From an uncultured Bacteroidota bacterium (lineage in GTDB: Bacteria; Bacteroidota; Bacteroidia; Bacteroidales; FEN-979), in contig CALMDO010000141.1 of NCBI GenBank assembly GCA_937862805.1, forward strand, positions 1 to 33,269: a stretch of DNA of 33,269 nt, read 5' to 3'. The first letter of the stretch is position 1, and the number at the start of each line of letters is the position of its first letter. The position numbers were made by a program, and so were the translations under genes. Positions 58 to 19,880 of the stretch are shown piece after piece. Under the pieces are notes generated by a model. The model was not told where the DNA came from. It saw nothing but the letters and a program-made list of their open reading frames with translations, and made no database searches.

Positions 58-734
58 TGCACCATTGGCTTGGTTTCTTTTTACTTTTCCTGTGTTCACT
101 GACCGTTTCAGGGCAAAAGCCATTGCTCACAGCCAGCGAAATTGACAATCAATTCTCAAAGGTCTGGAAAACCAGCGAAGCATCCCGGAAACTATACACC
201 TGGAAAAGCAGAACCGAGGTCGTCAGAAACGGTAAGGTCATCCAGGTTTTGGTTGAAGAATTTTCTTACGGTACTGATGGCCGGCAACTCCGTAAGATCA
301 TCAGCAACGAAGAAGCCCCCCTTCCGTCCGGTATAATAATACGCAGGATAGCGGAAGAACAGAAAGCGAAAATCATTGCTTTCATGAATGGGCTTCGCCA
401 ATTTCTTGAAAAATACTCACTGACAGACGATGACACAAGGCATGCTTTTTTTTCTGCAGCTACTACAAGCCTCCCTGACGCCAATGGGCAACTGCTGGTT
501 ACAGGTACCAACGTCTTTACCCGTGGCGATCTCCTGAAATGGTGGATCGATACCAAGTATTATACGATCACACGGGCCACTATCTCAACCGTATTTAAAG
601 AAACCAAGGCGGAATTTACAGCTACCTACTATTTGCTACCCGGACTGAATTACATGTCCAGTGCGATCATCAGGATCCCATCCCAGGGGATAGTAGTCAA
701 TCTGAAATTTTATGATTATACCAAAAAGAAATGA
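57..734 (+). CDS. Exported protein, possibly LolA-like (uncertain family)
   Basis: This 225-residue protein starts with a clear signal peptide: a hydrophobic run at about residues 5-18 ending near Ser-Gly-Gln. The mature part is about 205 residues, mixes beta-rich and charged segments, has no membrane span, and ends in Lys-Lys-Lys. The pattern loosely recalls the periplasmic lipoprotein carrier LolA and related folds, but I saw no diagnostic motif, so the family is a guess. The ATG at 57 is the only plausible start: the next Met is near residue 110, and the signal peptide needs this start. The start codon shares its A with the CCA end of the tRNA. The stop overlaps the next gene as ATGA (731-734), so the two are probably translationally coupled. 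Confidence 0.75.
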   Translation: MHHWLGFFLLFLCSLTVSGQKPLLTASEIDNQFSKVWKTSEASRKLYTWKSRTEVVRNGKVIQVLVEEFSYGTDGRQLRKIISNEEAPLPSGIIIRRIAEEQKAKIIAFMNGLRQFLEKYSLTDDDTRHAFFSAATTSLPDANGQLLVTGTNVFTRGDLLKWWIDTKYYTITRATISTVFKETKAEFTATYYLLPGLNYMSSAIIRIPSQGIVVNLKFYDYTKKK

Positions 735-1951
735 AAAAAATTCTCCTTGCAACAGGTTTATCGATTGTGTACACCTTTGCTGTCGCACAATGGACCACCC
801 TTTCAAGTGGCACATCAAACCATCTTGCTTCCGTATTTTTCACTTCTCCGGAAACAGGTTATGTTGCCGGTAATTCCGGTACCCTGCTGAAAACCATCAA
901 CGGGGGCGCTGACTGGATCCCTTTATCCAGTGGAACCAGCGAAGATCTCAACGCGGTCTGCTTCATCGATGGAAATACCGGATTTGCAGCCGGAAACCAG
1001 GGCACACTCCTTAAAACGACCGATGGCGGCTCGACCTGGGTTCCCTTGTCAAGCGGAACTACCAAGATATTAAACAGCCTCTGCTTCACAACGCCCGACA
1101 AGGGTTATGTTGTGGGTGGTGACGGTTTTTCATCGGCATGTATCCTCAAAACCTTGGATGGCGGGTTAACCTGGACGACCACTGCTCTTGCCTCCTCCAC
1201 GGTGTTTATGTCCATCTGTTTTGCAGATGAGATGACCGGTTATGCCGCGGGAATCAATGTTACGGCCATGCGGGGCGGCGTAATAGCAAAAACGACCGAT
1301 GGAGGTGAGACTTGGAACATCATCCAGCCCAGCGGAACCTGGTATGGATTGTATTCTATCGATTGTACCGATGCCAATACCGCTTTTGCTGCAGGAATGT
1401 TCGGTACCTTGATCAAGACCACGAACGGTGGAGCCGATTGGACCTCCACCCTTACGGGAAGCAGCACCAACCTGGATGGCGTTAAGTTTGCTGATAACCT
1501 TACCGGGTATGCTGTCGGGGGACTCGGTTTAATCCTGAAAACAGTGGATGGCGGAGAATATTGGGGACCGTTGACTTCCGGGAGCACCAACGAATTGTTT
1601 TCAATCCACTTTCTCAATCCAGATACCGGATATATATCCGGAATTTTTGGAACCATCCTGAAAACGACCAACGGGGGAGGATTTTTTGTCGGCGTTCCCG
1701 ACCGGTTACCGGTTTCTAACGGGTTGATAGTCTATCCCCTCCCCGCAACAGACAAAGTGACCATCGCAACGGGGGAAACCGCTGGGAGCAGCCTCATTGA
1801 AATCAATAACCTGAATGGCCTGCCTTTGATCAGTTACCGGCATACAGGTTCCCGGTCGGTCCCGGATGTTTCCTCCTTACCTGCCGGTTATTATTTGATC
1901 AGGGTGATCAGCGATTCCGGTGTTAAGACCGGTCGCCTGGTGAAAAGATAA
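731..1951 (+). CDS. Secreted YCF48/BNR-repeat protein with T9SS sorting domain
   Basis: This 406-residue protein has a signal peptide (residues 1-19). Seven repeats follow, each with the pattern aromatic-x-x-G-x-x-G-x-(I/L)-x-K-T-x-(D/N)-G-G-x-x-W, filling roughly residues 30-320. These are YCF48-type (photosystem II stability factor-like) beta-propeller repeats. The last ~75 residues (from Val-Tyr-Pro, including the Asp-Lys-Val-Thr-Ile segment, to Gly-Arg-Leu-Val-Lys-Arg) match the type A C-terminal sorting domain recognised by the Bacteroidota type IX secretion system. The protein is therefore inferred to be secreted or held at the cell surface. Its ligand is unknown. The start overlaps the previous stop by four bases. 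Confidence 0.9.
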   Translation: MKKILLATGLSIVYTFAVAQWTTLSSGTSNHLASVFFTSPETGYVAGNSGTLLKTINGGADWIPLSSGTSEDLNAVCFIDGNTGFAAGNQGTLLKTTDGGSTWVPLSSGTTKILNSLCFTTPDKGYVVGGDGFSSACILKTLDGGLTWTTTALASSTVFMSICFADEMTGYAAGINVTAMRGGVIAKTTDGGETWNIIQPSGTWYGLYSIDCTDANTAFAAGMFGTLIKTTNGGADWTSTLTGSSTNLDGVKFADNLTGYAVGGLGLILKTVDGGEYWGPLTSGSTNELFSIHFLNPDTGYISGIFGTILKTTNGGGFFVGVPDRLPVSNGLIVYPLPATDKVTIATGETAGSSLIEINNLNGLPLISYRHTGSRSVPDVSSLPAGYYLIRVISDSGVKTGRLVKR

Positions 1952-6152: not shown

Positions 6153-6174
6153 ATAATCAATTAAAATTGATTAT
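6153..6174. repeat. Perfect 10-bp inverted repeat at the end of the hyf-like operon
   Basis: ATAATCAATT (6153-6162), two bases, then AATTGATTAT (6165-6174) form a perfect palindrome. The right arm covers the TAA stop (6171-6173) of the last hyf-like gene. The arms hold only two G/C bases in total, and there is no T run typical of an intrinsic terminator. It could be a weak transcript-end hairpin or a binding site for a dimeric regulator of the downstream TPR gene. Confidence 0.6.
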
Positions 6175-6929
6175 GGATGTCCTGTCATGTCGAGTACCCC
6201 GTTGATAAATGTCAAGGGATGGGGAGGATTCCCGGGCACCAGTAAATCGGGTTTGATGTGACTGGGAAACCACCGGTCGATGGCTCTTCCGTTTTGAAAA
6301 AGCCCTCCGCTGATGGCATCGCTTCCGGCCAATATGACCACTTTAGGTTCCGGAACGGCATCATAACAGATCTTCAGTGCGGCAGCCATGTTGGCTGAGA
6401 TCGGTCCGGTTATCACAATGCCATCGGCGTGGCGGGGTGAAGCCACAAACTCGATCCCGAAGCGGCCCATGTCGAAATTGACATTGCCTGCGGCATTCAA
6501 CTCCATTTCTGCAGCATTGTCACCGCCTGCCGAAACCTGACGGAGTTTGAGAGCATGCCTGAAGGTCCTGAGAATCACTTCCCTGATCCTTTCCGGATCG
6601 AGGCGGATGGGTCCGTCTTGCCCTGACCTCACGATCAATCGCTGTGGGTCGTTGGTAGCCAACCGGTAGTCGTTGGTAAAACGGATCTTCCCCGGGAAAG
6701 TAAACTCACACTCCCGGCAAAAAACACATTTCCCCAGATCGATGGAACAGGGATCAGCGGCAATAGCCGATACAGGGCACAGCCGCACCAGCCGGTCAGT
6801 TTCTTCCGGCGTGATCTCCCCGCTGATCATTGGCCTGCCTCTGAAATGTACGGGAGGTGCAGCCTTCCTCAAGTCAGGGATCGATTGCCGGCCATGGCGG
6901 AGAAGGATGGGTATTTCGCGGAGTATCAT
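6171..6929 (-). CDS. Fused HyfH/HyfI-like subunit: ferredoxin domain plus NuoB-like domain, Fe-S ligands largely lost
   Basis: In E. coli hydrogenase-4, HyfH and HyfI are separate proteins; here 252 residues carry both. Residues 25-100 resemble the two-cluster ferredoxin HyfH, but the first CxxCxxC is gone. What remains is Cys51-Pro plus C68, C71 and C74, enough for one [4Fe-4S] cluster. The Cys expected before the second Pro is Phe78. Residues 128-252 match the small (NuoB/HycG) subunit, including FGIEFVASPRHAD at 157-169 and ITGPI at 173-177. All four proximal-cluster (N2) cysteine positions are changed: Asp137, Ala140, Asp204 and Asn234. It sits in the cytoplasmic arm, 21 bases after hyfG. 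It cannot carry electrons the way a normal HyfI does. The frame is intact and the conserved fold segments argue against a pseudogene. Confidence 0.88.
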   Translation of the reverse strand: MILREIPILLRHGRQSIPDLRKAAPPVHFRGRPMISGEITPEETDRLVRLCPVSAIAADPCSIDLGKCVFCRECEFTFPGKIRFTNDYRLATNDPQRLIVRSGQDGPIRLDPERIREVILRTFRHALKLRQVSAGGDNAAEMELNAAGNVNFDMGRFGIEFVASPRHADGIVITGPISANMAAALKICYDAVPEPKVVILAGSDAISGGLFQNGRAIDRWFPSHIKPDLLVPGNPPHPLTFINGVLDMTGHP

Positions 6930-6950
6930 ACTGATATTTATATCCTTGCG

Positions 6951-8474
6951 TTAAAGATCATGGCCACAATATGAGAGGTTATAGCTTTTATTGCACAGCG
7001 GAAAATCGGAGATCTCCTGGTTCCTTACAGCCAGTGCCAGGGCCGTCCAGTTATGGAAAGAAGGATCTTTCACCTTGTACCGGAGCAGTTCTCCCTGTTT
7101 CCCGGTTACCGCCGCATGACAGATCTCTCCCCTCCACCCTTCTGTCAGTGAAACAGCCAGGGTTTCGGGTTGAAAAGGGAAAGTATAACAAGGTTCATTC
7201 ATTGATCCCGCTTCCTCCCATTTTCGGGCCAATTCCCGGATCATCATGATGGAATTCTCGACTTCCAGCTTGCGAAGCCGAGCCCTGGCCCAAACATCCC
7301 CTGAAGGGATGACCACCGGCTCGTAACGATTGTTAATCCGGCTCCCTGTCGGATGAGACCAACGGGTATCCCTCGCCAAACCGCTGCTACGGGCCGCCAT
7401 CCCGACGGCACCGATCGATAGCGCCTGCTGCTCCGTTACCTTTCCGATAGCCTCAAAACGACCCAGGACACTGGGCATCGAAAAAATCCGATCGGTGATC
7501 TGATGAAACCGGGACTCCACTTCTTCAAGATTTTGCAGCAGGTCGTTTTTCATTGCCGGTGTCAATGGATAGCGCGTACCACAAGGGCGGATCAGTCCCT
7601 TCCCGAAGCGATTGCCACACCATCGCTGGGTTGTGTTGATGACCAGGGTCCGGAGCGCTTCATTCACCACCTGTCCCAATTGATAAGCCACATCATTGCA
7701 CAAGGCAGCCATATCCCCGATATGTACCGCGATCCGCTCCATCTCCAGGGCAATCTCCCTTTCTATCGATAATTTCTCTCCTATGACTTTGCTTCCCAAT
7801 GCTTCGGTCAACAAGGCGTTAGCCAGGGAATGGCCGACAGCCGTATCCCCTGCAATACTTTCTGCCAAAACTGATCTCTTGAGGATTCCGGGTTGTTCGA
7901 TCAATGCATTTTCAACTCCGCGGTGTTGATAACCCAATTGGATCTCCAGGTGAAAAACGGTTTCGCCATGACAGATGAACCGGAAATAGCCCGGTTCGAT
8001 CACCCCGGCATGGATCGGTCCTACTCCCACCTCGTGCAACTCCTCTCCTTCGATGGTATAGAAGGGATAACCGCCCATCATCTCATGCTGATGATGGCGG
8101 TCGGCCGGATATCGGACGGGTTTCAGCCAGGGGTGTCCGGTAAAAGGAACTCCATGGTTTTCATACAGTTCCCGCTCGAACCCGTGAAAAGCAGGGTGAC
8201 GGGCTGTTAAGGCGTCGGGAGGCCTGTCCATGCCCGCCTTCCATTCATAGGAAAAGATACGGATGGCATGGCTCCTGTCCAACCCTATACAGCAGACCAT
8301 CCGTAACCGGTCGTGAAAAGGATAGGCAAAATAGGAGAGACAGTGGTTCCCTTTTTCTGCCATAAACGCATCCACCAACCTGAAAAAGAGAGGATAATCC
8401 AATATTGGTACCTCCGCCAAACTGATCGCGAACGGGTTGGATTTCACCTCAGCATAAGGATTGTTTCCGTTCAT
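6951..8474 (-). CDS. HyfG-like large subunit (NuoC-NuoD fusion) without [NiFe] ligands
   Basis: The protein has 507 residues from the ATG at 8474, which overlaps the hyfF stop as ATGA. A longer frame to 8792 exists but lies wholly inside hyfF. Residues 1 to ~130 resemble NuoC. From ~140 the protein follows the NuoD/hydrogenase large subunit, with GPIHAGVIEPGYFRF (152-166) and LGYQHRGVE (180-188) typical of group 4 hydrogenases. The N-terminal RxCGxC motif is ESIAGDT (205-211), with Ala208 and Thr211 at the ligand positions. The C-terminal DPCxxC motif is Asn-Leu-Ser-Tyr-Cys-Gly near 499-504, also without ligands; Cys503 is out of register. It therefore cannot bind a [NiFe] centre and is not a hydrogenase. 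This matches the energy-converting hydrogenase-related (Ehr) group. Substrate or quinone binding is unknown. Confidence 0.9.
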   Translation of the reverse strand: MNGNNPYAEVKSNPFAISLAEVPILDYPLFFRLVDAFMAEKGNHCLSYFAYPFHDRLRMVCCIGLDRSHAIRIFSYEWKAGMDRPPDALTARHPAFHGFERELYENHGVPFTGHPWLKPVRYPADRHHQHEMMGGYPFYTIEGEELHEVGVGPIHAGVIEPGYFRFICHGETVFHLEIQLGYQHRGVENALIEQPGILKRSVLAESIAGDTAVGHSLANALLTEALGSKVIGEKLSIEREIALEMERIAVHIGDMAALCNDVAYQLGQVVNEALRTLVINTTQRWCGNRFGKGLIRPCGTRYPLTPAMKNDLLQNLEEVESRFHQITDRIFSMPSVLGRFEAIGKVTEQQALSIGAVGMAARSSGLARDTRWSHPTGSRINNRYEPVVIPSGDVWARARLRKLEVENSIMMIRELARKWEEAGSMNEPCYTFPFQPETLAVSLTEGWRGEICHAAVTGKQGELLRYKVKDPSFHNWTALALAVRNQEISDFPLCNKSYNLSYCGHDL

Positions 8475-9850
8475 CGGGGAAGGGTGTTGATGATGGATTC
8501 TATTATATTCCGGAAAGGAGCCGGCTGGATGAAACAGAGGAAGATAACCAGTGCGAAAAGAAAGTATTGCGGAAGTGTTTCCCAGGGGGAGACTTTTCCA
8601 TGAGGATGTCCGGAAAGGGTGCGGGGTTGGGAATAAACGATGTGCAGTACGCGCGTCAGCAAGGCATACAACACGAAACAAAGGATGAGAATAGTAAGCA
8701 CAAGGTATACATAATTTCCGCGCGCGATCATGGCTTGCAACAAGTAGAGTTCGGAGATGAACATCCCGGAAGGGGGAATGGCCGTGATACACAGAAAGCC
8801 GACCAGCAATGCCGTGGCTCCGGCGGGTTGAAGTTTCATATAATTGCCCGATTCATCCAGTAAATAGCTTCCCATTACGCGGTAGGACTGTCCGATCTGG
8901 TAGAACAATCCGGCTTTGGTCAAAGAATGGAGCACCAGGTGCAGGATGGCGGCATAATACCCGATACCTCCAACCCCCAGGGCTATGGCCACAATGCCCA
9001 TATTTTCCAGACTGGAATAGGCCAACATTCTTTTGTTGTGTTTGGCTTTGAGCATGTACCCGGCCGAAACAAGAAGGGAGAGAAGCCCCGACAATAAAAG
9101 TACGTTGTTCATAAAAGGGAGGATGGTGGTGGCAGAAAACAAACCATAGATCCGGAAGATGGCGAGGAATCCGACATTCATCAGGGCGGTGCTGATGAAC
9201 GCGCTGACGGGGGCGGGGGCGACAGTGTGGGCATCCACCGTTACCGTATGCATGGGAAAGAGGCCCATTTTGGTGCTGTAACCTACCAGGACGAATATGA
9301 AAGCGATTTTCAGGTACAGGGGATTGGCCATTTTTGCGATTTCGGTAACACTGCTGAAGGAGAGATGCAGTAACCGTGCATCATGGACTGTGAATCCAAG
9401 AAAAAGAATCCCTAAATAGGCCAGTGCAATGCCCACCGAACAGACAAAGATATATTTCCAGGTTGCTTCCAGTGCTACCGGTGTACGATCATGGTAAATG
9501 AGTGCTGCAACAGCCAGGGTAGTGGCCTCCACAAAAATCCAGACCGTTGTCATCCCGTTGGCTAGGTAAGCGCCCGACATGGCAGTTATCAGGGCAAGAA
9601 GGGCAACGTGATAAAGCAGGTAATGGCGTGACGGGTCATTTTTCAGGTAGATAAAACCATGGATGACTGTCGTGATCGACAACAACGACAGAACCGACAA
9701 TAAAAGAACCCCCAAAGCATCGAGGGTGAAAAATTCAAAAAGCGTCTCATCCAGATGAAACCAGCAAAAGAGGGTAAATCCCACATGGATCACCAGGTAA
9801 ATGACCATGATGAACCGGACTAACGCTTTAATGGTTTTTCCTTTATTCAT
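8471..9850 (-). CDS. HyfF-like proton-translocating antiporter-type subunit
   Basis: This 459-residue protein has about 13-14 membrane spans and belongs to the NuoL/M/N and Mrp antiporter superfamily. The key charged residues of the half-channels are present: Glu108 in the fifth span (Val-Glu-Ala), Lys194 in Ser-Thr-Lys-Met-Gly-Leu-Phe-Pro-Met-His, and Lys312 in His-Ser-Leu-Thr-Lys-Ala. The Val-Asp-Ala-His-(x)4-Ala-Pro segment (205-214) is typical of the family. It should be part of the membrane arm and move protons (or Na+) across the inner membrane. The gene overlaps hyfE by eight bases upstream and hyfG by three bases downstream (ATGA). It has no lateral amphipathic helix like that of NuoL. 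Confidence 0.92.
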   Translation of the reverse strand: MNKGKTIKALVRFIMVIYLVIHVGFTLFCWFHLDETLFEFFTLDALGVLLLSVLSLLSITTVIHGFIYLKNDPSRHYLLYHVALLALITAMSGAYLANGMTTVWIFVEATTLAVAALIYHDRTPVALEATWKYIFVCSVGIALAYLGILFLGFTVHDARLLHLSFSSVTEIAKMANPLYLKIAFIFVLVGYSTKMGLFPMHTVTVDAHTVAPAPVSAFISTALMNVGFLAIFRIYGLFSATTILPFMNNVLLLSGLLSLLVSAGYMLKAKHNKRMLAYSSLENMGIVAIALGVGGIGYYAAILHLVLHSLTKAGLFYQIGQSYRVMGSYLLDESGNYMKLQPAGATALLVGFLCITAIPPSGMFISELYLLQAMIARGNYVYLVLTILILCFVLYALLTRVLHIVYSQPRTLSGHPHGKVSPWETLPQYFLFALVIFLCFIQPAPFRNIIESIINTLPR

Positions 9851-10460
9851 CTTTCAACAGGGTCAGTTCATGGGCATGTTCTTTCAGTCGCATGGTAAAT
9901 ATCCCGAGGATCAACACGCTCACAAAAATATCGAGCAGTATCCCGATATTGATCAACATGGGCATTTCGCTACCGATCGCCAGGGAAAGTAGCAATACCG
10001 CGTTTTCGAGGACGAGAAAACCGACCAGGTGGGCAAATATCTTACGATGCGAAATGATCAGGAACAATCCGGTGTAAACGGCAAAGAGGGCCACTGTAAA
10101 AAAGAGCATCTTTTCGGGCGTGGTATTCATCGACAGTGAAACCATAATGCTAAGGAGCAGTCCTGCCGAAACGATGATCAGGGAGTAGAAACCGGGCAAG
10201 GATTTTTCGTGGACTCTGGAGATACCCGTTTTGTTAATGATCCTGAAAAGCAACCAGGGAACGATGATCACCTTGAACACCAGGGTTTCCAGGGTAACAA
10301 ATATCAAAGTTGCTAACGTAATGGTATTCAATTCGATGAATGAAAGGACAAAGAGCAGCAAACCCTGAAAACCGATCAACCCTGCATAGATCCTGAAACG
10401 CTCGGTAATACTGAGGTATATCAACGAGATGGCGAAGATGACGACGATCATTGCGTTCAT
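9843..10460 (-). CDS. HyfE-like (NuoK-related) membrane subunit
   Basis: This 205-residue protein has about six to seven membrane spans and matches hydrogenase-4 component E, which carries a NuoK-like domain in its C-terminal half. Glu58 (Thr-Leu-Glu-Thr-Leu-Val-Phe-Lys) and Glu152 (Val-Leu-Glu-Asn-Ala-Val-Leu-Leu) are buried acidic residues in spans; Glu152 is the likely counterpart of the NuoK channel glutamate. Its role would be to carry part of the proton path linking the cytoplasmic arm to the antiporter subunits. Its ATG overlaps the hyfC stop as ATGA (10457-10460), and its end overlaps the hyfF start by eight bases, so translation is coupled. Confidence 0.88.
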   Translation of the reverse strand: MNAMIVVIFAISLIYLSITERFRIYAGLIGFQGLLLFVLSFIELNTITLATLIFVTLETLVFKVIIVPWLLFRIINKTGISRVHEKSLPGFYSLIIVSAGLLLSIMVSLSMNTTPEKMLFFTVALFAVYTGLFLIISHRKIFAHLVGFLVLENAVLLLSLAIGSEMPMLINIGILLDIFVSVLILGIFTMRLKEHAHELTLLKDE

Positions 10461-11368
10461 TGGCCCGGGATTATAAAAATGATCAGTAAAATCAGGATAA
10501 AAGCCACCATGGCAATGGAACTCAGGGTAAAGATGAATTGCGGGTTTTTTGCCAGTTTTTTGCGTGCCCTGAACGATTCGAGGAACCCGATCAGGGAGGC
10601 GAAGAGGCCCTGGATGACCAGTGAAAGGAGAATCAGCCAGATAAAAGTGCCGGTCGCCGGCAAGATGATGTTGGCAATGAGCGTACCATAGATCCCGAAT
10701 TTCAGTGCAGTAGCTGTCTGGATGATGGCCAGGTCAAACCCGCTGTAGTCTAAGATCATTACTTCATGAACCATGGTCAGCTCCAGGTGGGTTTTCGGGT
10801 CATCGACCGGCATACGGCTGTTTTCGATCATCGCTATCTGGATCAACAGGTACACCGCGATAAATCCGATGATGATCCCCTGCGGTCCGGCGAAACGGAA
10901 GGTGTCGAAAATGTCGGTCATGGATTGGTGGCCTGTAAGCAGGGCGAGAGAACCGAACAAAATAAAAAATGCAGGTTCTGCCAACATGGAATAGAGTGCT
11001 TCCCTGTTCGCTCCCATCCCTTCAAAACTACTGCCGGTATCGAGTGCTCCAAGGATGAAAAGAAATTTGCCCAAGGCAAGGAGGTAGGCCATCAATACAA
11101 AATCGCCCGGGAAAGTGAGCAATGGTTCAAAACCCGGTAGTGGCAGAAGCAAAGCAGCACAAAGGATGGTGGCCAGATAGACGGCAGGCGCCAGTCTGAA
11201 AATAAAACTGGTTACTGTACTGATGACACTTCCTTTTTGAACCAAAACCGCTACATTCTTCCAGGGCTGGAGGATGCCCGGGCCTTTCCGCCCGGAGGCA
11301 ATGCTCTTGGTGCGGAGAATGATCCCGGGAAAGAAAACAGCAGTAACGATACAAAAAAGAAGGGCCAT
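10457..11368 (-). CDS. HyfC/HycD/NuoH-like membrane anchor subunit
   Basis: This 303-residue protein with about eight spans belongs to the NuoH/HycD/EchB family, which anchors the cytoplasmic arm to the membrane. Diagnostic segments are Gly-Pro-Gly-Ile-Leu-Gln-Pro-Trp (29-36) in the first loop, LDTGSSFEGMGANRE (109-123), and ENSRMPVDDPKTHLELTMVHE (182-202). The last two hold the charged residues of the E-channel and the loop that meets the large and small subunits. All look intact although the partner subunits have lost their cofactors. Its start overlaps the hyfB stop by one base (TAATG) and its stop overlaps hyfE as ATGA. Confidence 0.93.
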   Translation of the reverse strand: MALLFCIVTAVFFPGIILRTKSIASGRKGPGILQPWKNVAVLVQKGSVISTVTSFIFRLAPAVYLATILCAALLLPLPGFEPLLTFPGDFVLMAYLLALGKFLFILGALDTGSSFEGMGANREALYSMLAEPAFFILFGSLALLTGHQSMTDIFDTFRFAGPQGIIIGFIAVYLLIQIAMIENSRMPVDDPKTHLELTMVHEVMILDYSGFDLAIIQTATALKFGIYGTLIANIILPATGTFIWLILLSLVIQGLFASLIGFLESFRARKKLAKNPQFIFTLSSIAMVAFILILLIIFIIPGQ

Positions 11369-13353
11369 TATACGATTTTCAGATAAAGCAGGATAAAAAT
11401 GATGAGGATATAGATAAAAGCATACAGGATATAGTGTTGGATATTGCCCGTCTGGAGCCTTGCAATCTTTTTCAGTGCCGTCATGGTAAACCCGGTCAGC
11501 CGGAGGATGGCTGAACGGAAACTGTCGGAGGGATGGATGGCGTAGTTGCGTTGCCGGGGGAATAATTCATCCTCTGTCAGCGGTGTAAAATCTTCTTTTT
11601 GTTGCAGCAGCGGTTGCGCCAGATCGCCGAAAGAGGAAGCATAGGAGGTGGCGGTATATTGTTGCCGGGATGTCCCTGCAGTATAACCGCAGCCCCAGGT
11701 AGGACCTTGTACCATCGTTTTCCTTTGCAAAACCCACTTTCTGAGAAGCAGGATCGCTCCGGTGGCCAGGATAAGGATAAGACTGATCAGGGAAACGGTT
11801 TGCAGGATTGTGTAAAACGTATCCGGGAGGGTACAGGGTGTTGCTTTAAAGCTGACAGCAACGATTTCCGCCAGGGGACGGATCAGCAACCAGGGAAGCA
11901 GTCCGATGAAAAGGATCAGGAGCAGTTGCAGGTACTGCGGAAAGAGCATTCCCGGGGTCGCTTCCCTGACTTTTGGCTCCGTGGTCTGTCGTGGAGATCC
12001 CAGAAAAACAACACCGAACGCTTTGGTGAAACAAAAGATAGCCAGTCCGCCGATAAGGGTCAGCGCGACCAGAACGCCCATCAGGGCAATCGAGTGATAG
12101 ACATTCCCGGCTGACAATCCCACGATCAATCCGCTGAAAATCAAAAACTCGGAAATAAACCCGTTGAGCGGGGGCAATCCGCAGATGGCCAGTGCAGCCA
12201 TCAGAAAAAGTCCTGCGGTATGGGGCATCCTGTGGATCACGCCGCCCAGCTTTTCCATGTTAAGGGTATGGTACGCCTGATAGACCGATCCGGCACTGAA
12301 GAATAAAAGAGGTTTGAACAACGAGTGATTCAATACATGCAGCAATGCACCGGCAAATCCCAGTGTGATTAAAAGCGGGTTGGCCAGTCCGATTCCTGTC
12401 ATGCCAACCCCTAAACTGATCCCGATGATGCCGATATTTTCAATGCTGTGATAGGCCAGTAGTTTTTTCAGGTTGTGTTGCACGATGGCCATCATCACAC
12501 CCATCAGTCCGGTCACCGAACTGATGATGAGCAGGATGATCCCGATCAATAAAAAATCTGACTGAACATAGGTCATAACCCGCACGATGCCATAAATGCC
12601 CATTTTGATCATTACCCCCGACATCACCCCTGACACGTGTGAAGGTGCAGCGGGATGGGCTTCGGGCAGCCAGGTGTGGAGGGGAATAAAACCTGCCTTG
12701 ATGGCAAATCCTGCAAAAAAAAGAAAAAACAGCGGCGCTGCCCGGTGTTGCGTAAAATAGATTTGTAAGGCATCAAAACGCATCGCCCCGGTACCCTCAC
12801 GGCAGATCAGAAAAGCGACCACCAGCATGAAAAAACCTACGTGCATCTGGATCAGATAGTTGACAGCCGTTTTGAGGGTTTCCCTCTTTTCGGCTTCAAA
12901 CAGGATCAGCATGAAGGAAGAAACGGCCATTAATTCCCAGGCAATGAGAAAGGCCAGGCCATCGTTCAGCATCAGTACGCCCAGCATGGAAAAGTGCAGC
13001 CAGACGAAACTGAAATTATGCAAGGCCAGTTCCGCCGGACTTTTTGACTGCCGGTACGAAGAGAGGTACCCCCGTGAATAAAGGAGCCCGGCGAGGACGG
13101 TAAAATGGGTGACCAGGATAAAAAAACCGCTGAGGGTATCAATCGTAAAAATGACGTGACCGCCAAGGCCTTTGGCATCAAAAGTAGTTACCGCTCCCCC
13201 GGGATGAAGGATCGCGTTGAAGGCCGGGATGGCAGTAATAAGTACAGCCAGCAAGGTAACTGCCAAAGTATAATAGTACCTTATCCCGGAGGGCATGACC
13301 AGGATCAGAAACGAGAGGAGTACCGGGATCAGGATGGTATAATTGTCCATCAT
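11368..13353 (-). CDS. HyfB-like proton-translocating antiporter-type subunit
   Basis: The protein has 661 residues from the ATG at 13353. The frame can be extended to a TTG at 13362, and another ATG is at 13350. It is a NuoL/M-type antiporter subunit closest in plan to HyfB/HycC, with about 14 core spans and a C-terminal soluble stretch followed by a final helix. Key residues (numbered from 13353) are Glu140 in Trp-Glu-Leu-Met, Lys219 in Ile-Lys-Ala-Gly-Phe-Ile-Pro-Leu-His, Lys250 in Met-Ile-Lys-Met-Gly and Lys347 in His-Ser-Leu-Phe-Lys-Pro. These are the residues expected for proton pumping. It is the first gene of the six-gene operon. About 93 bases separate it from the MacB-like permease gene upstream, with no convincing promoter, so readthrough from that operon is possible. 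Confidence 0.93.
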   Translation of the reverse strand: MMDNYTILIPVLLSFLILVMPSGIRYYYTLAVTLLAVLITAIPAFNAILHPGGAVTTFDAKGLGGHVIFTIDTLSGFFILVTHFTVLAGLLYSRGYLSSYRQSKSPAELALHNFSFVWLHFSMLGVLMLNDGLAFLIAWELMAVSSFMLILFEAEKRETLKTAVNYLIQMHVGFFMLVVAFLICREGTGAMRFDALQIYFTQHRAAPLFFLFFAGFAIKAGFIPLHTWLPEAHPAAPSHVSGVMSGVMIKMGIYGIVRVMTYVQSDFLLIGIILLIISSVTGLMGVMMAIVQHNLKKLLAYHSIENIGIIGISLGVGMTGIGLANPLLITLGFAGALLHVLNHSLFKPLLFFSAGSVYQAYHTLNMEKLGGVIHRMPHTAGLFLMAALAICGLPPLNGFISEFLIFSGLIVGLSAGNVYHSIALMGVLVALTLIGGLAIFCFTKAFGVVFLGSPRQTTEPKVREATPGMLFPQYLQLLLILFIGLLPWLLIRPLAEIVAVSFKATPCTLPDTFYTILQTVSLISLILILATGAILLLRKWVLQRKTMVQGPTWGCGYTAGTSRQQYTATSYASSFGDLAQPLLQQKEDFTPLTEDELFPRQRNYAIHPSDSFRSAILRLTGFTMTALKKIARLQTGNIQHYILYAFIYILIIFILLYLKIV

Positions 13354-13446: not shown

Positions 13447-14667
13447 TTATTCATACCGGAGCGCGTCGATCGGATTCAGCCGGGCCGCTTTCCGGGCAGG
13501 ATACCAGCCAAAAAAGATCCCGATTGCTGAGGAGAAGAGAAACGACATCAGGATGGATTGTGAAGTGATCGTCACCGGCCAACTCAGAACAGAGGCAATG
13601 ATTTGTGAAACGATCATCCCCAGGAAGATCCCGATGAGACCACCCAGCAGACTGATCATCAATGCTTCAATAAGAAACTGCATCAGTACGTCGCGACCCC
13701 TGGCTCCCACGCTCATGCGGATCCCGATCTCGCGGGTCCGTTCGGTGACCGAAACCAGCATGATGTTCATAATCCCGATTCCTCCAACCAGCAGGGAAAT
13801 GCTGGCAATGGTAGCCAGAAGAACCGTCATGATAGAAGAAGTGGAGGTGGCCATCGCAGCGATATCGGTCTGGGTACGGATGGTGAAATCAGGATCCTCG
13901 GAAGGCCCCAGGTTGTGTTTAGCCTTCAGCACCTCTGTTATCTCCTGCGACGCAACCGGGATCAACGCTTCACTCTGAGCTGAAGCCAGCATGCTCTGGA
14001 CATACGTGATGGCCTGCATCCGCTTCTGAACCGTGGAAAAAGGTGCGATCACCATATCATCCTGATCTTGTCCAAATTGGTTTTGTCCTTTTCTTTCCGC
14101 TATAGCTACGATCTGAAAAGGAATTTTATTGATCCTGATGTAACTGCCGATCGGATCCGCATTTTCACCGAACAGTTCATTGACTATGGTTTGCCCGACA
14201 ACACACACTTTGGCTGCGCTTCGTTCATCGGCCAGAGAAAAGACCGTCCCGGAGGAGAGTTTCAGATTACGGATTTCAAAGTAGTTGGGATAAACACCAT
14301 ACACAGAAGTACGCCAGTTCACGTTCCCGGCTACGAGTTGTCCGCTGGTACGCGTCTGGGGTGTAATGTACTTAACTGACTGACAGCGTGTTTCTATGAT
14401 TTTTACATCTTCCAGGGTCATTTTTTGTGAAGAGCCGGCTTCCATCCTGACACCTCCGGTACTACTGGCCTGAGGCCAGATCATCAGGACATTGGTCCCC
14501 AGGGTAGAAATTTGTGCCTGGATAGAGGTTTTGGATCCTTGTCCGATAGCGATCATCGCGATGACAGAGGCCACGCCGATTATGATCCCCAACATGGTAA
14601 GAAAACTGCGCATTTTGTTTTTCGTCAGCGAACGAACGGCAGCCTTAATGAGATTTTTGATTTTCAT
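13447..14667 (-). CDS. MacB-type ABC transporter permease
   Basis: This 406-residue protein has the MacB/FtsX plan: one N-terminal span (about 18-40) after a basic Arg-Ser-Leu-x-Lys-Asn-Lys-Met-Arg-Ser motif, a periplasmic domain of about 230 residues, and three C-terminal spans (about 277-400). The [10 protein letters not shown] motif follows the second span, as is typical. E. coli MacB fuses the ATPase and the permease; here they are two genes with an ATGA overlap. It would work as a mechanotransmitter driving export through MacA and TolC. Last gene of the HK-RR-tolC-macA-ATPase-permease operon. The substrate cannot be read from the sequence. Confidence 0.93.
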
Positions 14668-15416
14668 AGCTCCTCCTCTGTTACAGCAGGTATCAGCAAT
14701 AATTCTTCCCTTGCAAGGCGGGGTTTTTCCACCACCACTTCACGTATAATTTTTCCGTCGCGGAAAGTAATGTTCCGCTTGGTAAAGGTGGCGATATCCG
14801 TTTCATGGGTCACGATGACTACGGTAATTCCTTGTTCGTTCAGCCGTTGGAAAATATCCATCACCTCAATACTGGTGCGGGTGTCAAGGTTTCCGGTGGG
14901 TTCATCAGCCAGGATCACGACGGGGTCGTTGACCAGTGACCGGGCAATCGCCACCCGTTGTTGTTCACCACCTGAAAGTTGGTTGGGCATATGGTGGGCA
15001 CGGCCGGCCAAACCAACTGACTCCAAGGCTGTGAGGGCCCGCTTGTGCATCTCCTTTGAAGAGATTTTCCGGTTGTACATCAGGGGAAGTTCAACATTTT
15101 CCATCGCCGAAGTGCGTGAAAGAAGGTTGAACGACTGAAAGACAAACCCTATCTTCAGGTTCCTCAGGTTGGCCAACTGGTCTTTAGCCAGGCTGCCGAC
15201 ATCTACCCCGTCGAGCAAAAATTCTCCGCGGGTAGGAACATCAAGGCAACCCAGGATGTTCATAAAGGTTGATTTTCCCGATCCGCTTTTTCCCAGGATG
15301 GCTACAAAATCACCCTTCTCGATGGTCAGGTTGATACCCCTCAGGGCATGGACTTCGACATCCCCCATGGTATATATCTTGACCAGGTTCTTGACCGAAA
15401 TGATCGCTTTGTCCAT
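14664..15416 (-). CDS. MacB/LolD-type ABC transporter ATP-binding protein
   Basis: The protein has 250 residues from the ATG at 15416, two bases after the macA stop (TAATATG). A longer frame to 15458 adds 14 residues lying inside macA and is not supported. All ATPase motifs are present: Walker [10 protein letters not shown] (42-50), Q-loop Gln94, signature LSGGEQQ (147-153), Walker B VVILADE (166-172) and H-loop His204. The Pro-Thr-Gly-Asn-Leu-Asp after Walker B is typical of the MacB/LolD/FtsE branch. A C-terminal tail of about 25 residues follows the ATPase core. It powers the adjacent permease. Confidence 0.95.
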
Positions 15417-15417
15417 A

Positions 15418-16722
15418 TTACCGTCCTCCCCTGCCACTTGGCATCCGCGGCGGACCAAAAGGATTTTGTTGTTGGGTTGACTGTGTAGAGGTTACGCCGT
15501 TACTTCCCAATACCACATCAGCTCCTTCTTTGAGATCCCTTCCTTTCACTTCGGTATAACTGCCATCGGTTAATCCGACCTTCACCCGGTGGGGTTTGAG
15601 TTGTTCTCCTTCCTTGACCCAGATAAGTCCCATCTTCGGACGGGCTGTGGGGGCATTACCTTTGGTCGGCGCCCCGGTGCCACGGGGTCGCTCTGCCACT
15701 CCTACGCCCATTCCCATTCCCGATGGCCGGTTTTTACTTGCTCCGGGTCCAAAGCGGTTTTTCACCGAATCGGGCAGGTTTTTCATCATTTCATCGATGT
15801 ACTCCTGTGGCGGCATAAACCTCAAGGCTGTAGCGGGAACTTTCAGGATATCCTTTGACTCCTCAATCATCACGGTGATGTTGGCCGTCATCCCGGGTAA
15901 AAGTTTCAGCTCATCGTTGGGCACATCAATGATCACGGTATAATTCACCACATTCTGACTGGTAACCGGTTGCAGACGCACCTGTTGTACAGTACCCCCG
16001 AAAGTAATTTCCGGGTAAGCATCCACGGTGAACGATACTTCCTGTCCCACCTTGATCTTTCCGATATCGCTTTCATCAATGCTGGCCTGTACCTGCATCT
16101 TGGTCAGATCGTTGGCAATGGTGAACATGGTTGGTGTGCTGAAGCTGGCGGCAACGGTTTGTCCGACATCGACTGCCCGTGAAACCACCACGCCTGATAT
16201 GGGGGCCAGGATTGTGGCATACCGCAGGTTGATTTTGGCTCTGTTCAACGCTGCCTGTGCCGATGAGGCATTGGTTACAGCCGTTTCATAGGTACTCAGG
16301 GCAAGATCGTAATCGGCCTGGGCCATTACCTTCTGTTCAAACAGGGTTTTGGTACGATCATAATCGCGTTTGGCTTGATTAACCTGGATTTCAGCTCTTT
16401 TCAACGATGCTTTTGCATCATCCACAGCCTGGGCCAGGTAGGTGGTATCAAGGAGTGCTATGATTTGCCCCTCCCTGACCACCGAATTAAAATCGACATA
16501 GATGTTCTTAATGATCCCTGAGACTTGTGTCCCGACTTGTACGGTGGTGACAGCCTGCAAAGTCCCGCTGGCTTTGACCGTGACCTGTACATCGCCCTTT
16601 TCTACCTTGGCGGTACGCCAGGTTCCCGCGGTTTCCGTTTTCTTTTTCCCGAAAAGAAACCAGGCTCCAATCGCGATCACAACGACCAATACTCCTGCTA
16701 TAATCCAATACTTCGTTTTCAT
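15418..16722 (-). CDS. MacA-like periplasmic adaptor (membrane fusion protein)
   Basis: This 434-residue protein has an N-terminal membrane anchor (about 6-24), a biotinyl-lipoyl half motif (Val-Gly-Thr-Gln-Val-Ser-Gly-Ile, 63-70), and an alpha-helical hairpin (about 95-165) rich in Ala and Lys. The second lipoyl half (Ile-Leu-Ala-Pro-Ile-Ser-Gly-Val-Val, 171-179) and beta-barrel and membrane-proximal domains follow. Residues about 324-364 are a Gly/Pro/Arg-rich low-complexity insert before the last domain, and the C-terminus is also Gly/Arg/Pro-rich. It links the MacB-type ABC pair in the inner membrane to the TolC channel encoded just upstream in the operon. Confidence 0.93.
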   Translation of the reverse strand: MKTKYWIIAGVLVVVIAIGAWFLFGKKKTETAGTWRTAKVEKGDVQVTVKASGTLQAVTTVQVGTQVSGIIKNIYVDFNSVVREGQIIALLDTTYLAQAVDDAKASLKRAEIQVNQAKRDYDRTKTLFEQKVMAQADYDLALSTYETAVTNASSAQAALNRAKINLRYATILAPISGVVVSRAVDVGQTVAASFSTPTMFTIANDLTKMQVQASIDESDIGKIKVGQEVSFTVDAYPEITFGGTVQQVRLQPVTSQNVVNYTVIIDVPNDELKLLPGMTANITVMIEESKDILKVPATALRFMPPQEYIDEMMKNLPDSVKNRFGPGASKNRPSGMGMGVGVAERPRGTGAPTKGNAPTARPKMGLIWVKEGEQLKPHRVKVGLTDGSYTEVKGRDLKEGADVVLGSNGVTSTQSTQQQNPFGPPRMPSGRGGR

Positions 16723-16769
16723 GGTTAACGCTTTACCTGTTGATGATTGATTTTGAAAATATTTTACAA

Positions 16770-18125
16770 CTAATTGATTTGTATGTCTTTACCCTGATAA
16801 AAGTCCAGGATTTTGCTTTTGAAAATGTAGTCATACTTGGCTTGTATGAGGTTCGACTGCGATTGAAAAAAATTGTTTTTCTGGATCAGAAAATCGGTCG
16901 CGTTCATGACTCCCACCCCGTATTTTTTTTCCGCGTTGAGGTAAGCAGCTTCGACCGCCCTGAGTTGTTCTCGTGTTGCTTCATATTTTTTAGAAGCAGC
17001 TTTCAGGTCGGTAGCGGTTTGTTCCACGTTTTTTCTCAGGACATTTTTCACATTTTGTTCATTCAAACGGGCATTCAACACGTTGATCTTTGCTCGGTCG
17101 ATGTTGCTTTTGATCTGGCGGTTGCTGTATATGGGGATGGACAATCCAAGATTCAGTGACTGGCCAATGTTGTCCCAGATTTGTTCAAAGAAAGGATATC
17201 CTTCGGGGTTCACGACGGAGCCCTGGGTGCGGCTGGAAGCAAAGTTGGTATTAAGGTTGGCGCCCAGGGTCAGCCGGGGCCAGCGGGCTCCTTCCGAAAC
17301 TTTCTGCGCCATGAGGGCGGCATCAGTTTTGATCGTATAGCCTGTAATCTGGGGCATGACCGCCAGTGAACGCCGGTAGATCTCCTCGTTGGTATTCAGG
17401 ATTTGCTGCGTGGGTTCCAGCATGGTAGGAATTTCCACGTCGAACAGGTCGGTCACCGGTATTTCCATCAGTTGCATCAGGGTGACTTTTGCCAAATCCA
17501 ATTGGTTTTGTGCCGTGATCACCGACAGGTTATCGGTAGCCTGCTGGGAGCGTATCTGGAGCAGATCGCTTTCGGGTGATTTGCCTGCTTCCACCATTTT
17601 TTGCGTCCGGTCGACCTGTGCGGCGGTAACTTCTGCCTGGTTTTTAGCGGCCGACAACACCTCATAAGCGAACAACACCTGCAGGTACCCGGTGGTGATA
17701 TTCAGCGTGACATCATTTTTTACTTTTTCAATGTCGTACTGTCCTGCTTCCACGTTCAGACGATTCTGGCGGATGGTGTTGGCATTTTGCAGGCCATTGA
17801 AAAGGTTGTAGCTGCCGTTGATCGACAGGTTGGTAGAGTGATAGGCCTGGGTCACAAACGAGTTGGTGGTCGGATCGACATTTTTACCAAGGCTCAGCCC
17901 TTCACTGGCATTGGCGCTCACGCTGGGAATCCGGCCCGCTTTGGATTGTTCGAGGCTCACTTTGTTCAGTTCATTGGTTAACCGGCTCTGGTTCACCGTG
18001 ATGTTGTGCACAAGGGCCGTGTCCAGGCACTCCCGGAATTTCCATCGCTTTACCTGGGCCGTGACCCCGTTTCCTGCAAGCAACAGGGGGATCATCATCC
18101 AAATCAGTTTATTCATCTTTATCAT
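16770..18125 (-). CDS. TolC-family outer-membrane efflux channel
   Basis: This 451-residue protein has a signal peptide ending at about Thr-Ala-Gln, then the duplicated coiled-coil and beta-strand plan of the TolC/OEP family. Long Asn-, Gln- and Ala-rich helices surround segments such as Ser-Ile-Pro-Ile-Tyr-Ser-Asn (second repeat) and Gly-Ser-Tyr-Asn-Leu-Phe-Asn-Gly (first repeat). It forms the outer-membrane exit duct for the MacA/MacB-type pump. Two starts are possible: 18125, or the Met at 18116, which gives a cleaner signal peptide. Both overlap the end of the LytTR regulator gene, so this gene is translationally tied to the two-component pair. Confidence 0.92.
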   Translation of the reverse strand: MIKMNKLIWMMIPLLLAGNGVTAQVKRWKFRECLDTALVHNITVNQSRLTNELNKVSLEQSKAGRIPSVSANASEGLSLGKNVDPTTNSFVTQAYHSTNLSINGSYNLFNGLQNANTIRQNRLNVEAGQYDIEKVKNDVTLNITTGYLQVLFAYEVLSAAKNQAEVTAAQVDRTQKMVEAGKSPESDLLQIRSQQATDNLSVITAQNQLDLAKVTLMQLMEIPVTDLFDVEIPTMLEPTQQILNTNEEIYRRSLAVMPQITGYTIKTDAALMAQKVSEGARWPRLTLGANLNTNFASSRTQGSVVNPEGYPFFEQIWDNIGQSLNLGLSIPIYSNRQIKSNIDRAKINVLNARLNEQNVKNVLRKNVEQTATDLKAASKKYEATREQLRAVEAAYLNAEKKYGVGVMNATDFLIQKNNFFQSQSNLIQAKYDYIFKSKILDFYQGKDIQIN

Positions 18126-18846
18126 CCTGTTTTTTATAGTTGATTCGCTTGTATAATTCTTCCCGGTAATAATCGCTTACCGGGATCTCCTTTTTCCCGA
18201 TAGTCAGGAGTTGTTTTTGCACACTTTCAATTTTCGCGAAAGCCACGATATAAGAGCGATGAACCCTGAGAAAATCGCGGGCAGGAAGTTTTTCTTCCAG
18301 CGATTTCATGCTCATCTGGGTGATCACCGGGCGATCGCCGGTATAGATTTTCACGTAATCTTTTAAGCCCTCTATATATGTAATATCTTCAAAACTGATT
18401 TTTACCAGTTTGTAATCGGATTTAACAAACAGGCAGGTGGGTATGCGTGACTTTCCCTCAGAAATTGCCAGAATGCCAGCATTTTCGCGGAGATCAATGT
18501 ATTCTCTCACCTTGTTAACAGCCTTCAGGAATCTTTCGAAGGAGTAGGGTTTTAGCAGGTAATCGATGACATCCAGATCATATCCTTCGCGGGCATAATT
18601 GGAATAAGCCGTGGTAAAGATAACCAGTGGGCGGTTTGTCAGGCTTTTCAGAAGCTGGATGCCTGAAATATCCGGCATCTGAATGTCGAGAAAGATCAGG
18701 TCGACCATGTTTTCCCGCAAAGCATCCATCGCTTCGGCAGCGCTCCGGCACCGCTGCACAAGTTCCAGGAAGGGAACCTTCCGGATGTTGTCTTCCAGCA
18801 GGTCAAGCGCCAACGCTTCATCATCAATGGCAATACAACGGATCAT
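18109..18846 (-). CDS. LytTR-family response regulator
   Basis: This 245-residue protein has an N-terminal receiver domain (1 to ~120) with acidic Asp8-Asp9, phosphoacceptor Asp54 (Phe-Leu-Asp-Ile-Gln-Met-Pro), Thr78-Thr79 and Lys99 (Leu-Lys-Pro-Tyr-Ser). A LytTR DNA-binding domain (about 140-240) follows, with Tyr-Ile-Glu-Gly-Leu-Lys-Asp-Tyr-Val and Arg-Val-His-Arg-Ser-Tyr-Ile-Val. Such regulators bind direct repeats upstream of their targets. The partner is the adjacent LytS-like kinase, whose stop overlaps this start as ATGA. Position in the same operon as the tripartite pump suggests it controls that pump. Confidence 0.95.
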   Translation of the reverse strand: MIRCIAIDDEALALDLLEDNIRKVPFLELVQRCRSAAEAMDALRENMVDLIFLDIQMPDISGIQLLKSLTNRPLVIFTTAYSNYAREGYDLDVIDYLLKPYSFERFLKAVNKVREYIDLRENAGILAISEGKSRIPTCLFVKSDYKLVKISFEDITYIEGLKDYVKIYTGDRPVITQMSMKSLEEKLPARDFLRVHRSYIVAFAKIESVQKQLLTIGKKEIPVSDYYREELYKRINYKKQDDKDE

Positions 18847-19880
18847 GATTTAAAGTTTATGATCAGCCCTATTTCATATTGATTGTCGCTTTCCCGGGTG
18901 ATCAGCTGATGTTTCCCCGGATAGAGCAATTCGAGCCTTCGTTTCACATTTTTCAGACCAATGCCCGAGCCGGGATCGGGTAACTCTTTAACCGGTTTTG
19001 CTATCCTGTTAATCACTTTGAAGTGTAATTCTTCCGGAAAAGCCATAAGGGTTATAGAGATCTCTGCTTCATCGAGATAACTGATCCCGTGTTTAAAAGC
19101 GTTTTCAATAAAAGGAATCAGCAACAAAGGGGCAATCGAGATTTGCTCGGGATGTCCTTCGACGGTAAAGGTCACCTTTACTTTGTCGGAGATCCTCATT
19201 CGTTGCAGATCGATGTAATTCCTGAGGTATTCCACCTCCTGGTCGAGGCATACCGATTCATCTTTTGAATCCTGCAGCATGTACCGCATGATTTGCGATA
19301 GTTTGATGATGGCGTTTTCGGTATTATCAGATTTTTTCCGCGCCAGCGAACAGATGTTGTTCAGGGTATTGAAGAGAAAGTGTGGATTCACTTGTGATTT
19401 TAAAAAAGCAAGTTCGGCAGAGAGTTTTTCCGCTTCCATCTCCTTTTTCTGCCGTTCGTTTTTAAAGTACTCCATGATAATGCGGGTGGCGCTGCTAAGA
19501 GCAAAGGCCAGCAGAGCAGGATAGACAGGGAATGTAACGGTACGCCAGAAATTGAAGGGATGGTGGTGTTCGATCAGCTTGCCGGTAGCGATGGCAAAGA
19601 GTACGTTCACCATGCTCATTGCCACCAATCCCAGGATCAGCATGAGAATATAGGCCCCGATTTTTTTCCGGAGAAGGAACCGTGGCACCAACAAGGAGTA
19701 ATTATAATAAAAGTAAAGAAGGGTGAGTAGTTGCATGAACCATCCCATGATCATGAACCGTTCCCGCCCGGCAGCGGATTCAAAGAAAAAAAGAGGGACC
19801 ATGAAGTAAGCGGTCCAAACCAGAACATGAATCCAGGCGGAGGAAGGGTTTGACTTTAAGTCGGGAAGGGATCCCATCAT
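18843..19880 (-). CDS. LytS/YehU-type sensor histidine kinase
   Basis: This 345-residue protein has four predicted membrane spans (about 15-33, 44-62, 75-99, 115-136) with very short loops and no large outer domain, so it probably senses within or near the membrane. The His_kinase-family motif Val-Asn-Pro-His-Phe-Leu-Phe-Asn-Thr-Leu-Asn (164-174) carries the phosphorylated His167. The ATPase part has Ile-Glu-Asn-Ala-Phe-Lys-His-Gly (Asn260) and GSGIGLKN (304-311). It forms a two-component pair with the next gene. First gene of the efflux operon; divergent from rpoN across 140 bases. An ATG at 19877 is an equal alternative start. Confidence 0.94.
   Translation of the reverse strand: MMGSLPDLKSNPSSAWIHVLVWTAYFMVPLFFFESAAGRERFMIMGWFMQLLTLLYFYYNYSLLVPRFLLRKKIGAYILMLILGLVAMSMVNVLFAIATGKLIEHHHPFNFWRTVTFPVYPALLAFALSSATRIIMEYFKNERQKKEMEAEKLSAELAFLKSQVNPHFLFNTLNNICSLARKKSDNTENAIIKLSQIMRYMLQDSKDESVCLDQEVEYLRNYIDLQRMRISDKVKVTFTVEGHPEQISIAPLLLIPFIENAFKHGISYLDEAEISITLMAFPEELHFKVINRIAKPVKELPDPGSGIGLKNVKRRLELLYPGKHQLITRESDNQYEIGLIINFKS

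Follow-up and report, generated by a model that had tools for sequence, protein, structure and literature searches.

The six-gene block and its kinship with Ehr

The DNA analysed here is positions 1 to 33,269 of the forward strand of contig CALMDO010000141.1 (assembly GCA_937862805.1) from an uncultured Bacteroidota bacterium (GTDB lineage Bacteroidales; FEN-979); this whole stretch of 33,269 nucleotides is referred to below as the window. It carries a six-gene block in the order B-C-E-F-G-HI (Table 1), which is an Ehr (energy-converting-hydrogenase-related) complex. To judge from the aligned sequences, the ligand sets of two of its three iron-sulfur clusters, the outer N6a-like one and N2, have been lost, and that of the middle, N6b-like cluster has been kept; loci of this kind are called N2-less, and those with the N2 cysteines N2-bearing. 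The gene order, the overlaps of 1, 4, 8 and 4 bases along B-C-E-F-G and the 21-base gap before HI agree with an earlier description made from the DNA letters alone (the sequence-only reading).

Table 1. Coordinates of the Ehr genes and of other features, in positions of the window or, where a locus is named, of that locus
Feature	Location	Strand	Description
B	13353-11368	-	HyfB/EhrA-like antiporter-like subunit, 661 aa; ATG at 13353
C	11368-10457	-	HyfC/HycD/NuoH-like, 303 aa; Pfam PF00146 NADHdh 3.4e-23
E	10460-9843	-	HyfE-like membrane subunit, 205 aa
F	9850-8471	-	HyfF-like antiporter-like subunit, 459 aa
G	8474-6951	-	HyfG/EhrL-like large subunit without first [NiFe] CxxC, 507 aa; ATG at 8474
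HI	6929-6171	-	Fused HyfH-like ferredoxin and NuoB/HyfI-like domain, 252 aa
Efflux operon	13447-19880		MacB/HlyD/OEP efflux operon and LytTR two-component pair, adjoining Ehr
ORF	731-1951		Open reading frame with type IX secretion tail
L111 transporter	L111:4811-6571		SulP-family transporter gene (Pfam) after the N2-bearing operon
L099 cassette	L099:5167-9483		Five open reading frames between E and F
L155 insertion	L155:7258-9665		Two open reading frames between F and G, one DNA cytosine methyltransferase-like
L170 G gene	L170:9953-11473		G gene alone

B and F match the Pfam family PF00361 (Proton_antipo_M) at 5.7e-49 and 2.3e-41, and the NCBIfam models for hydrogenase 4 subunits B (4.7e-149, below its curated cut-off) and F (8.4e-69, below its cut-off); both also match Mrp A/D models, always beneath the better hydrogenase-4 matches in NCBIfam. 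The best NCBIfam match of E is a hydrogenase 4 membrane subunit (2.8e-13), whose 50 bits fall short of the cut-off of 136; the Pfam scan gave E no match. G matches PF00346 (Complex1_49kDa) at 1e-27 and HycE of structure 7z0s at 1.9e-30 by sequence and 2.6e-23 by fold. HI matches PF01058 (Oxidored_q6) at 9.8e-16, and the top Foldseek hit of its predicted structure is HycG (7z0s_G, 1.3e-10). The predicted structures have a pLDDT of 79 for G and 83 for HI, with segments 1-7, 122-146, 149-187 and 491-511 of the G model below 50. Residues of G are counted from position 8486; subtracting 4 gives the numbering based on the ATG at 8474.

Coppi 2005 and Marreiros 2013 are the classic papers on Ehr. Published accounts describe it as akin to group 4 hydrogenases and devoid of the [NiFe]-binding residues (PMC6349859, PMC10284858, PMC10432482), with a function called unknown or still to be determined (PMC10284858, PMC6728331). 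The window block fits this description: G has A-G-D-T at the site where HycE has C-G-I-C in the alignment, so that the first [NiFe] CxxC is absent, and antiporter-like and HyfC-like membrane subunits are present in one operon. The second, near-C-terminal CxxC was assessed by eye against the known motif. The N2-type [4Fe-4S] ligands of the small subunit are absent (D137/A140/D204/N234); they are a trait of the N2-bearing relatives and not a stated criterion of Ehr in the available portions of the literature.

A scan of named genomes with G returned 46 relatives from many phyla with best-segment identities of 39-49%; by record title they include Myxococcota, Planctomycetota, Acidobacteria, Spirochaetes, Geobacter and others. 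The full six-gene set was found in 32 of the 46, and most of the others reflect contig ends or detection limits. HI was found in 43 relatives and its N2 positions were readable in 42, all of which (42/42) keep the N2 cysteines. In three Geobacter-type loci (L047, L058 and L075) the DNA covered contains just C-E-F-G, with neither B nor HI; the published Geobacter Ehr includes EhrA and EhrS, according to PMC7894505. Among plasmid records, G matched 88, all below 60% identity (best 42%), whose HI genes were left unread.

The sequence-only reading was correct that hyfA and hyfD are missing from the window operon, and it took this to set the block apart. The latter part did not hold, since N2-bearing relatives have an identical gene set; to lack hyfA, hyfD and the [NiFe] site is thus the norm for Ehr. 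Nor is a new family of machine, as had been suggested, supported: the block is a derived form of Ehr. No description of an N2-less Ehr was found in the open-licence literature, which was searched in part and with supplements left uncovered. A variant with two B genes in tandem, that is, seven genes and three antiporter-like subunits, occurs in 12 of 58 loci (L104, L109, L110, L146, L150, L151, L154, L157-L159, L177 and L178), and also in several Holophagaceae loci.

Comparison with known systems places the block more exactly. It shares its subunit types with Ehr of Geobacter (EhrA-C/L/S), mycobacteria (Rv0082-Rv0087), comammox Nitrospira and ammonia-oxidising archaea, namely a large subunit without the [NiFe] CxxC, a small subunit and HyfB/C/E/F-like membrane subunits. 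It differs from other Ehr in lacking the N2 and outer ferredoxin ligands, a comparison that did not extend to the mycobacterial, Nitrospira and archaeal examples. The subunit types are also those of E. coli formate hydrogenlyase and hydrogenase 4, HycE and HycG being the nearest solved folds for G and HI, and the gene order is shared as well; unlike these systems, the window operon has no HyfA or HyfD, no first [NiFe] CxxC and no proximal cluster ligands. With respect to group 4 [NiFe] hydrogenases in general, the first CxxC is absent, and the search of the genome (92% complete) turned up no HypD. The block has the membrane arm and E-channel subunits in common with respiratory complex I (NuoB, C, D, H, L/M/N), and in the alignment G keeps the GPxH motif and the quinone-site Asp of the latter; the window operon, however, lacks the NADH module and the N2 ligands, and has Gly213 in G in place of the quinone-site Tyr of Nqo4. 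Mrp antiporters, which exchange ions without redox chemistry (PMC9568556), share the Proton_antipo_M subunits, whereas the block additionally has C, G and HI, and the MrpA-G set is absent among its six genes.

Ligand losses in HI and conservation of the other subunits

The N2 positions of HI were assigned by alignment to MbhJ and NuoB chains. The ligand survey comprised 59 N2-less loci (the window and 58 others) and 54 N2-bearing loci; canonical complex I loci or duplicates (L001-L003, L033) were excluded from the first comparison of N2 ligands, and loci with unreadable N2 positions (L071, L125, L136, L176, L179) were set aside. All four N2 cysteines are present in 54/54 N2-bearing loci, which is true by the definition of the group. 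The eight ferredoxin cysteines are all present in 47 of these 54, and one to four N6a ligands are missing in the remaining seven (L050, L113, L114, L115, L132, L135, L174). In the N2-less loci, no more than one of the four N2 cysteines remains, and ferredoxin cysteines I-III of the first motif (59/59) and cysteine IV of the second motif (55/59) are gone as well. The N6b-like cysteines C51, C68, C71 and C74 are present in every one of the 59. Under the usual wiring of 2[4Fe-4S] ferredoxins, the lost ligands belong to the outer N6a-like cluster and the N6b-like one stays whole, so a complete N6a would be lacking in the N2-less loci. The "nearly cofactor-free head" of the sequence-only reading is thereby borne out: one [4Fe-4S] set in the H part, no N2 cysteine in the I part and A-G-D-T in G.

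Because the same losses recur in 59 loci, they go beyond chance, and an artefact of a single genome or assembly was rejected for the same reason. Compensation by a new cysteine in G was rejected as well. The candidates C49 and C263 occur in 58/59 and 57/59 N2-less loci, yet they belong to N2-bearing loci too: among the nearest of these (L111, L144 and L174, with 51-52% identity in G and identical gene order), C49 is found in 3/3 and C263 in 2/3.

The letters that took the place of the N2 cysteines are largely uniform. Across the 59 loci, position 137 is D in 57 and E in 2, position 204 is D in 52, A in 6 and N in 1, and position 234 is N in all; position 140 varies more (C28/A19/T5/G3/N2/V1/S1). 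The site may have been rebuilt, with D137, D204 and N234, sometimes joined by C140, binding a divalent ion or a mononuclear Fe in a structural or redox-active role. The uniformity of the replacements (D/E in 59/59, N in 59/59, D in 52/59) would fit such a site, as decay would scatter the letters. On the other hand, D204 is replaced by A in six loci and by N in one, Asn is an unusual ligand, and Asp and Asn could equally fill a charge or hydrogen-bond role in an empty pocket. In our estimate a rebuilt metal site is quite unlikely.

The rest of the complex changed little. Taking columns as invariant at >=95% in N2-bearing loci and as kept at >=90% in N2-less loci, 285 of 323 invariant columns are kept (B 68/72, C 47/50, E 10/13, F 31/43, G 87/96, HI 42/49) and only four are replaced, of which one lies in F; the other three, in HI, are N2 ligands, replaced by definition of the N2-less group. 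Pump residues E140/K219/K347 of B and E108/K194/K312 of F, noticed already in the sequence-only reading, are kept in 100% of the N2-less loci compared. In the comparison of invariant charged and His residues, which left out L125 and L136, B keeps 16 of 16 (D294 at 96%), C keeps 20 of 21 at >=96% and E keeps four of five (R21, K63, E152, D177). The E-channel carboxylates of C are conserved in the N2-less loci; we take E182, R185, D189, D190, E196 and E202 to form the acidic loop of that channel. Loss of the channel residues in homologues, which the earlier reading held would speak against its proposal, was looked for, and they turned out to be conserved. The HI scaffold around the N2 site is otherwise largely kept, E141 included.

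In five close pairs, the B, C, F, G and HI genes differ at 32-52% of third codon positions and at 3-16% of second positions, and purifying selection acts on these five subunits. This bears on the view that the block is a decaying, functionless relic, for which one could cite the lost catalytic ligands and the Geobacter Ehr, termed non-functional in PMC13194489. Against a relic stand the selection in five subunits, the uniform replacement letters and an uninterrupted gene order in 52 of 58 loci. A relic is very improbable.

Distribution and genome context

In the window's family, G is matched at E <1e-100 in 29 of 43 genomes. An even draw of the window's order gave a match at 1e-30 in 75 of 295 genomes; of these, five with about 27% identity represent something else, one is 35% identical, and 69 remain, so that about 23% of the sampled genomes of the order carry Ehr. 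For the phylum (even draw, completeness >=80%), the count is 18 of 394, the window's own genome included; HI was found in 16 of the others, of which 15 are N2-bearing and the last is N2-less (L080/L112). Forty regions were hand-picked, not drawn at random, from the order matches, and 38 of them are Ehr-like: 30 N2-less, two N2-bearing, two unreadable and four without HI found (L146, L155, L170, L181), with L182 and L183 excluded as another family (G 27% identical). Thus, 30 of the 32 readable picked loci of the order are N2-less.

Trees were built from 53 (the earlier one), 93 and 35 loci, leaving out similar Holophagaceae and truncated loci, and in the 35-locus tree most close relatives too. 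With both FastTree and IQ-TREE, the N2-bearing pair L144/L174 falls among the N2-less loci, a placement that is weakly supported (0.25; SH-aLRT 80); a single origin of the N2-less group is not rejected (AU p 0.198). The earlier 53-locus tree, without L144/L174 and with the ligand columns included, had the N2-less loci as one clade (0.999). Hence, the trees are compatible with either one or two losses of N2, the N2-less loci forming one clade or two. A stepwise shortening of the iron-sulfur wire is plausible, because the seven N2-bearing loci named above have also lost their N6a ligands wholly or partly. One genome (G031) holds two N2-less Ehr operons, L103 and L104, on different branches of the tree.

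A search for the block across Bacteroidota and a list of its linked genes, as the sequence-only reading had proposed, showed that the block recurs and that no neighbour family is widely recurrent over the 58 loci. The commonest family is found in 7/58; the commonest neighbours are efflux and regulator genes, mostly beside close relatives. In the window, such an efflux operon adjoins Ehr (Table 1), and in four sister-genus genomes (L105-L108) a comparable operon lies beside Ehr, on its opposite flank and oppositely oriented. Elsewhere in the window there is an open reading frame with a type IX secretion tail, which would fit Bacteroidota. Interrupted or partial loci also occur. In L099, from the same genus, the cassette between E and F looks, by eye, RhuM-like and like abortive-infection/nucleotidyltransferase genes; L155 has an insertion separating F from G, and B, C and HI were not found in the locus; and in L170 the other five subunits are absent from the locus.

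One survey found a gene for an HTH-PTS EIIA fusion directly before B in 13 of 67 loci (L034-L036, L038, L045, L049, L054, L067, L076 and L113-L116; Pfam on one example) and in none of 46 N2-less loci. It was considered as a lost driver and rejected, since the N2-bearing L111, L144 and L174 do not have it; the gene looks regulatory. A link of Ehr to PTS-type regulation may merit study.

The missing cluster might have been supplied by another module of the same cell. The window's genome (92% complete) has a canonical complex I on contig C142; contigs C58 and C254 carry additional antiporter-like genes. Neither a [NiFe] large subunit nor HypD was found in this genome. These genome searches covered the [NiFe] large subunit and HypD; [FeFe] hydrogenases and formate dehydrogenases were not searched for in the genomes, and the scanned open reading frames of the window contained no formate dehydrogenase and no NADH-module family. 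In genome G654 (one contig, 99% complete), the N2-less HI is the only Oxidored_q6 match, G the only Complex1_49kDa match, and B and F the only Proton_antipo_M matches, with no [NiFe] large subunit found; nothing found in G654 could therefore lend an N2-bearing subunit or a membrane arm. Supply of the cluster by another module was rejected, as G654 has no other NuoB-like gene. The sequence-only reading had named a canonical module elsewhere in the genome as speaking against its proposal. Complex I does exist on other contigs of the window's genome; the objection has force in form only, because that complex I has antiporter subunits of its own and G654 has no other NuoB-, NuoD- or antiporter-type gene. 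A second single-contig genome, G626, has additional complex I-type genes. Ehr often coexists with other kinds of hydrogenase, as 35 of 43 genomes in the window's family have a [NiFe] large-subunit match.

Possible modes of action and significance

With two of the three clusters lost, the block may be driven or gated otherwise than by the usual electron relay. The head probably still does something specific, given that the D/D/N letters are uniform and the G pocket is well kept. We consider the most likely mode, close to an even chance, to be a redox-silent, Mrp-like ion translocator with the former head as a gate. The six proteins would still assemble as a complex I-shaped machine moving H+ or Na+; no N6a-N6b-N2 relay would carry electrons to the G pocket; ion exchange would take place in the C/E channel and both antiporter-like subunits; and the G pocket, the D/D/N site and the one structural cluster could act as a ligand- or metal-sensing gate.

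Several points weigh against a redox-silent gate. The conservation of G (87 of 96 invariant columns) exceeds what a gate alone might need, which favours real chemistry; the single cluster is perfectly kept, so electrons may still use it; and the retention of C140 in 28/59 loci suggests that some site chemistry may persist. The membrane arm, for its part, shows drift at D38 of C, R138 of E, and H201 (67%) and H304 (90%) of F, and the antiporter-like F keeps only 31 of its 43 invariant columns. A general shift of constraint to the membrane arm was rejected: the identity of F minus that of G is about +0.14 to +0.18 in the window's family, -0.02 to -0.10 in other N2-less loci and -0.12 to +0.01 in N2-bearing loci, so that it is true of the window's family only. 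Finally, published work expects redox coupling for Ehr: charge translocation coupled to redox chemistry is suspected in PMC6349859, which also proposes a complex of formate dehydrogenase with Ehr, and in PMC7894505 protein of the Geobacter Ehr (GSU0739-45, with EhrA, EhrC, EhrL and EhrS named) is reported to be up on formate.

The foremost alternative is that the block is still redox-driven, either by a soluble partner (ferredoxin, flavoprotein or dehydrogenase) at the N6b-like cluster or by two-electron or hydride exchange in the G pocket. The invariant N6b cysteines, the largely conserved pocket, the proposed link to formate dehydrogenase and the N2-bearing loci without a full N6a, which show that short wires are tolerated, are all in line with it. 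In solved relatives, however, electrons reach the active site from the N2 position, whose ligands are missing here. The cluster of HycG in the E. coli hydrogenlyase sits at this position, proximal to the active site (PMC9474812). Partner docking at the single cluster, as the sequence-only reading envisaged, could occur; no gene for a partner is widely recurrent next to the block, a result that covers linked genes only. On balance, a redox-driven block appears unlikely.

CO2-hydrating relatives of complex I couple chemistry to ion movement in a comparable manner to another candidate mode, non-redox chemistry in the G pocket, such as hydration or hydrolysis of a small molecule. H159, D265, D214, H219, D510 and C507 of G are conserved in N2-bearing and N2-less loci alike (C507 in 57/59 of the latter), and L111 adjoins a SulP-type transporter gene on one flank and genes resembling kdpA/kdpB, named by eye, on the other. 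Nevertheless, no other gene recurs widely, and the SulP neighbour was noticed in one N2-bearing locus only. This mode is improbable and ranks behind a rebuilt metal site.

A broader reading is held tentatively, at somewhat less than an even chance: one bacterial order would possess a complex I-superfamily machine that is independent of the iron-sulfur relay, with a pump driven or gated otherwise and an N2 pocket of Asp/Asp/Asn. A central open question of complex I is by what means distant ion channels are driven by the transfer of electrons at N2 and the quinone site. An N2-less form beside N2-bearing sisters with 51-52% identity in G allows coupling to be tested by comparison and, if the above is true, would be a natural test of whether electron flow is required for the long-range coupling of complex I. 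In at least one single-contig genome, G654, Ehr in its N2-less form is the only machine found among the complex I and Mrp families tested. These data suggest that Ehr need not be an electron-driven enzyme.

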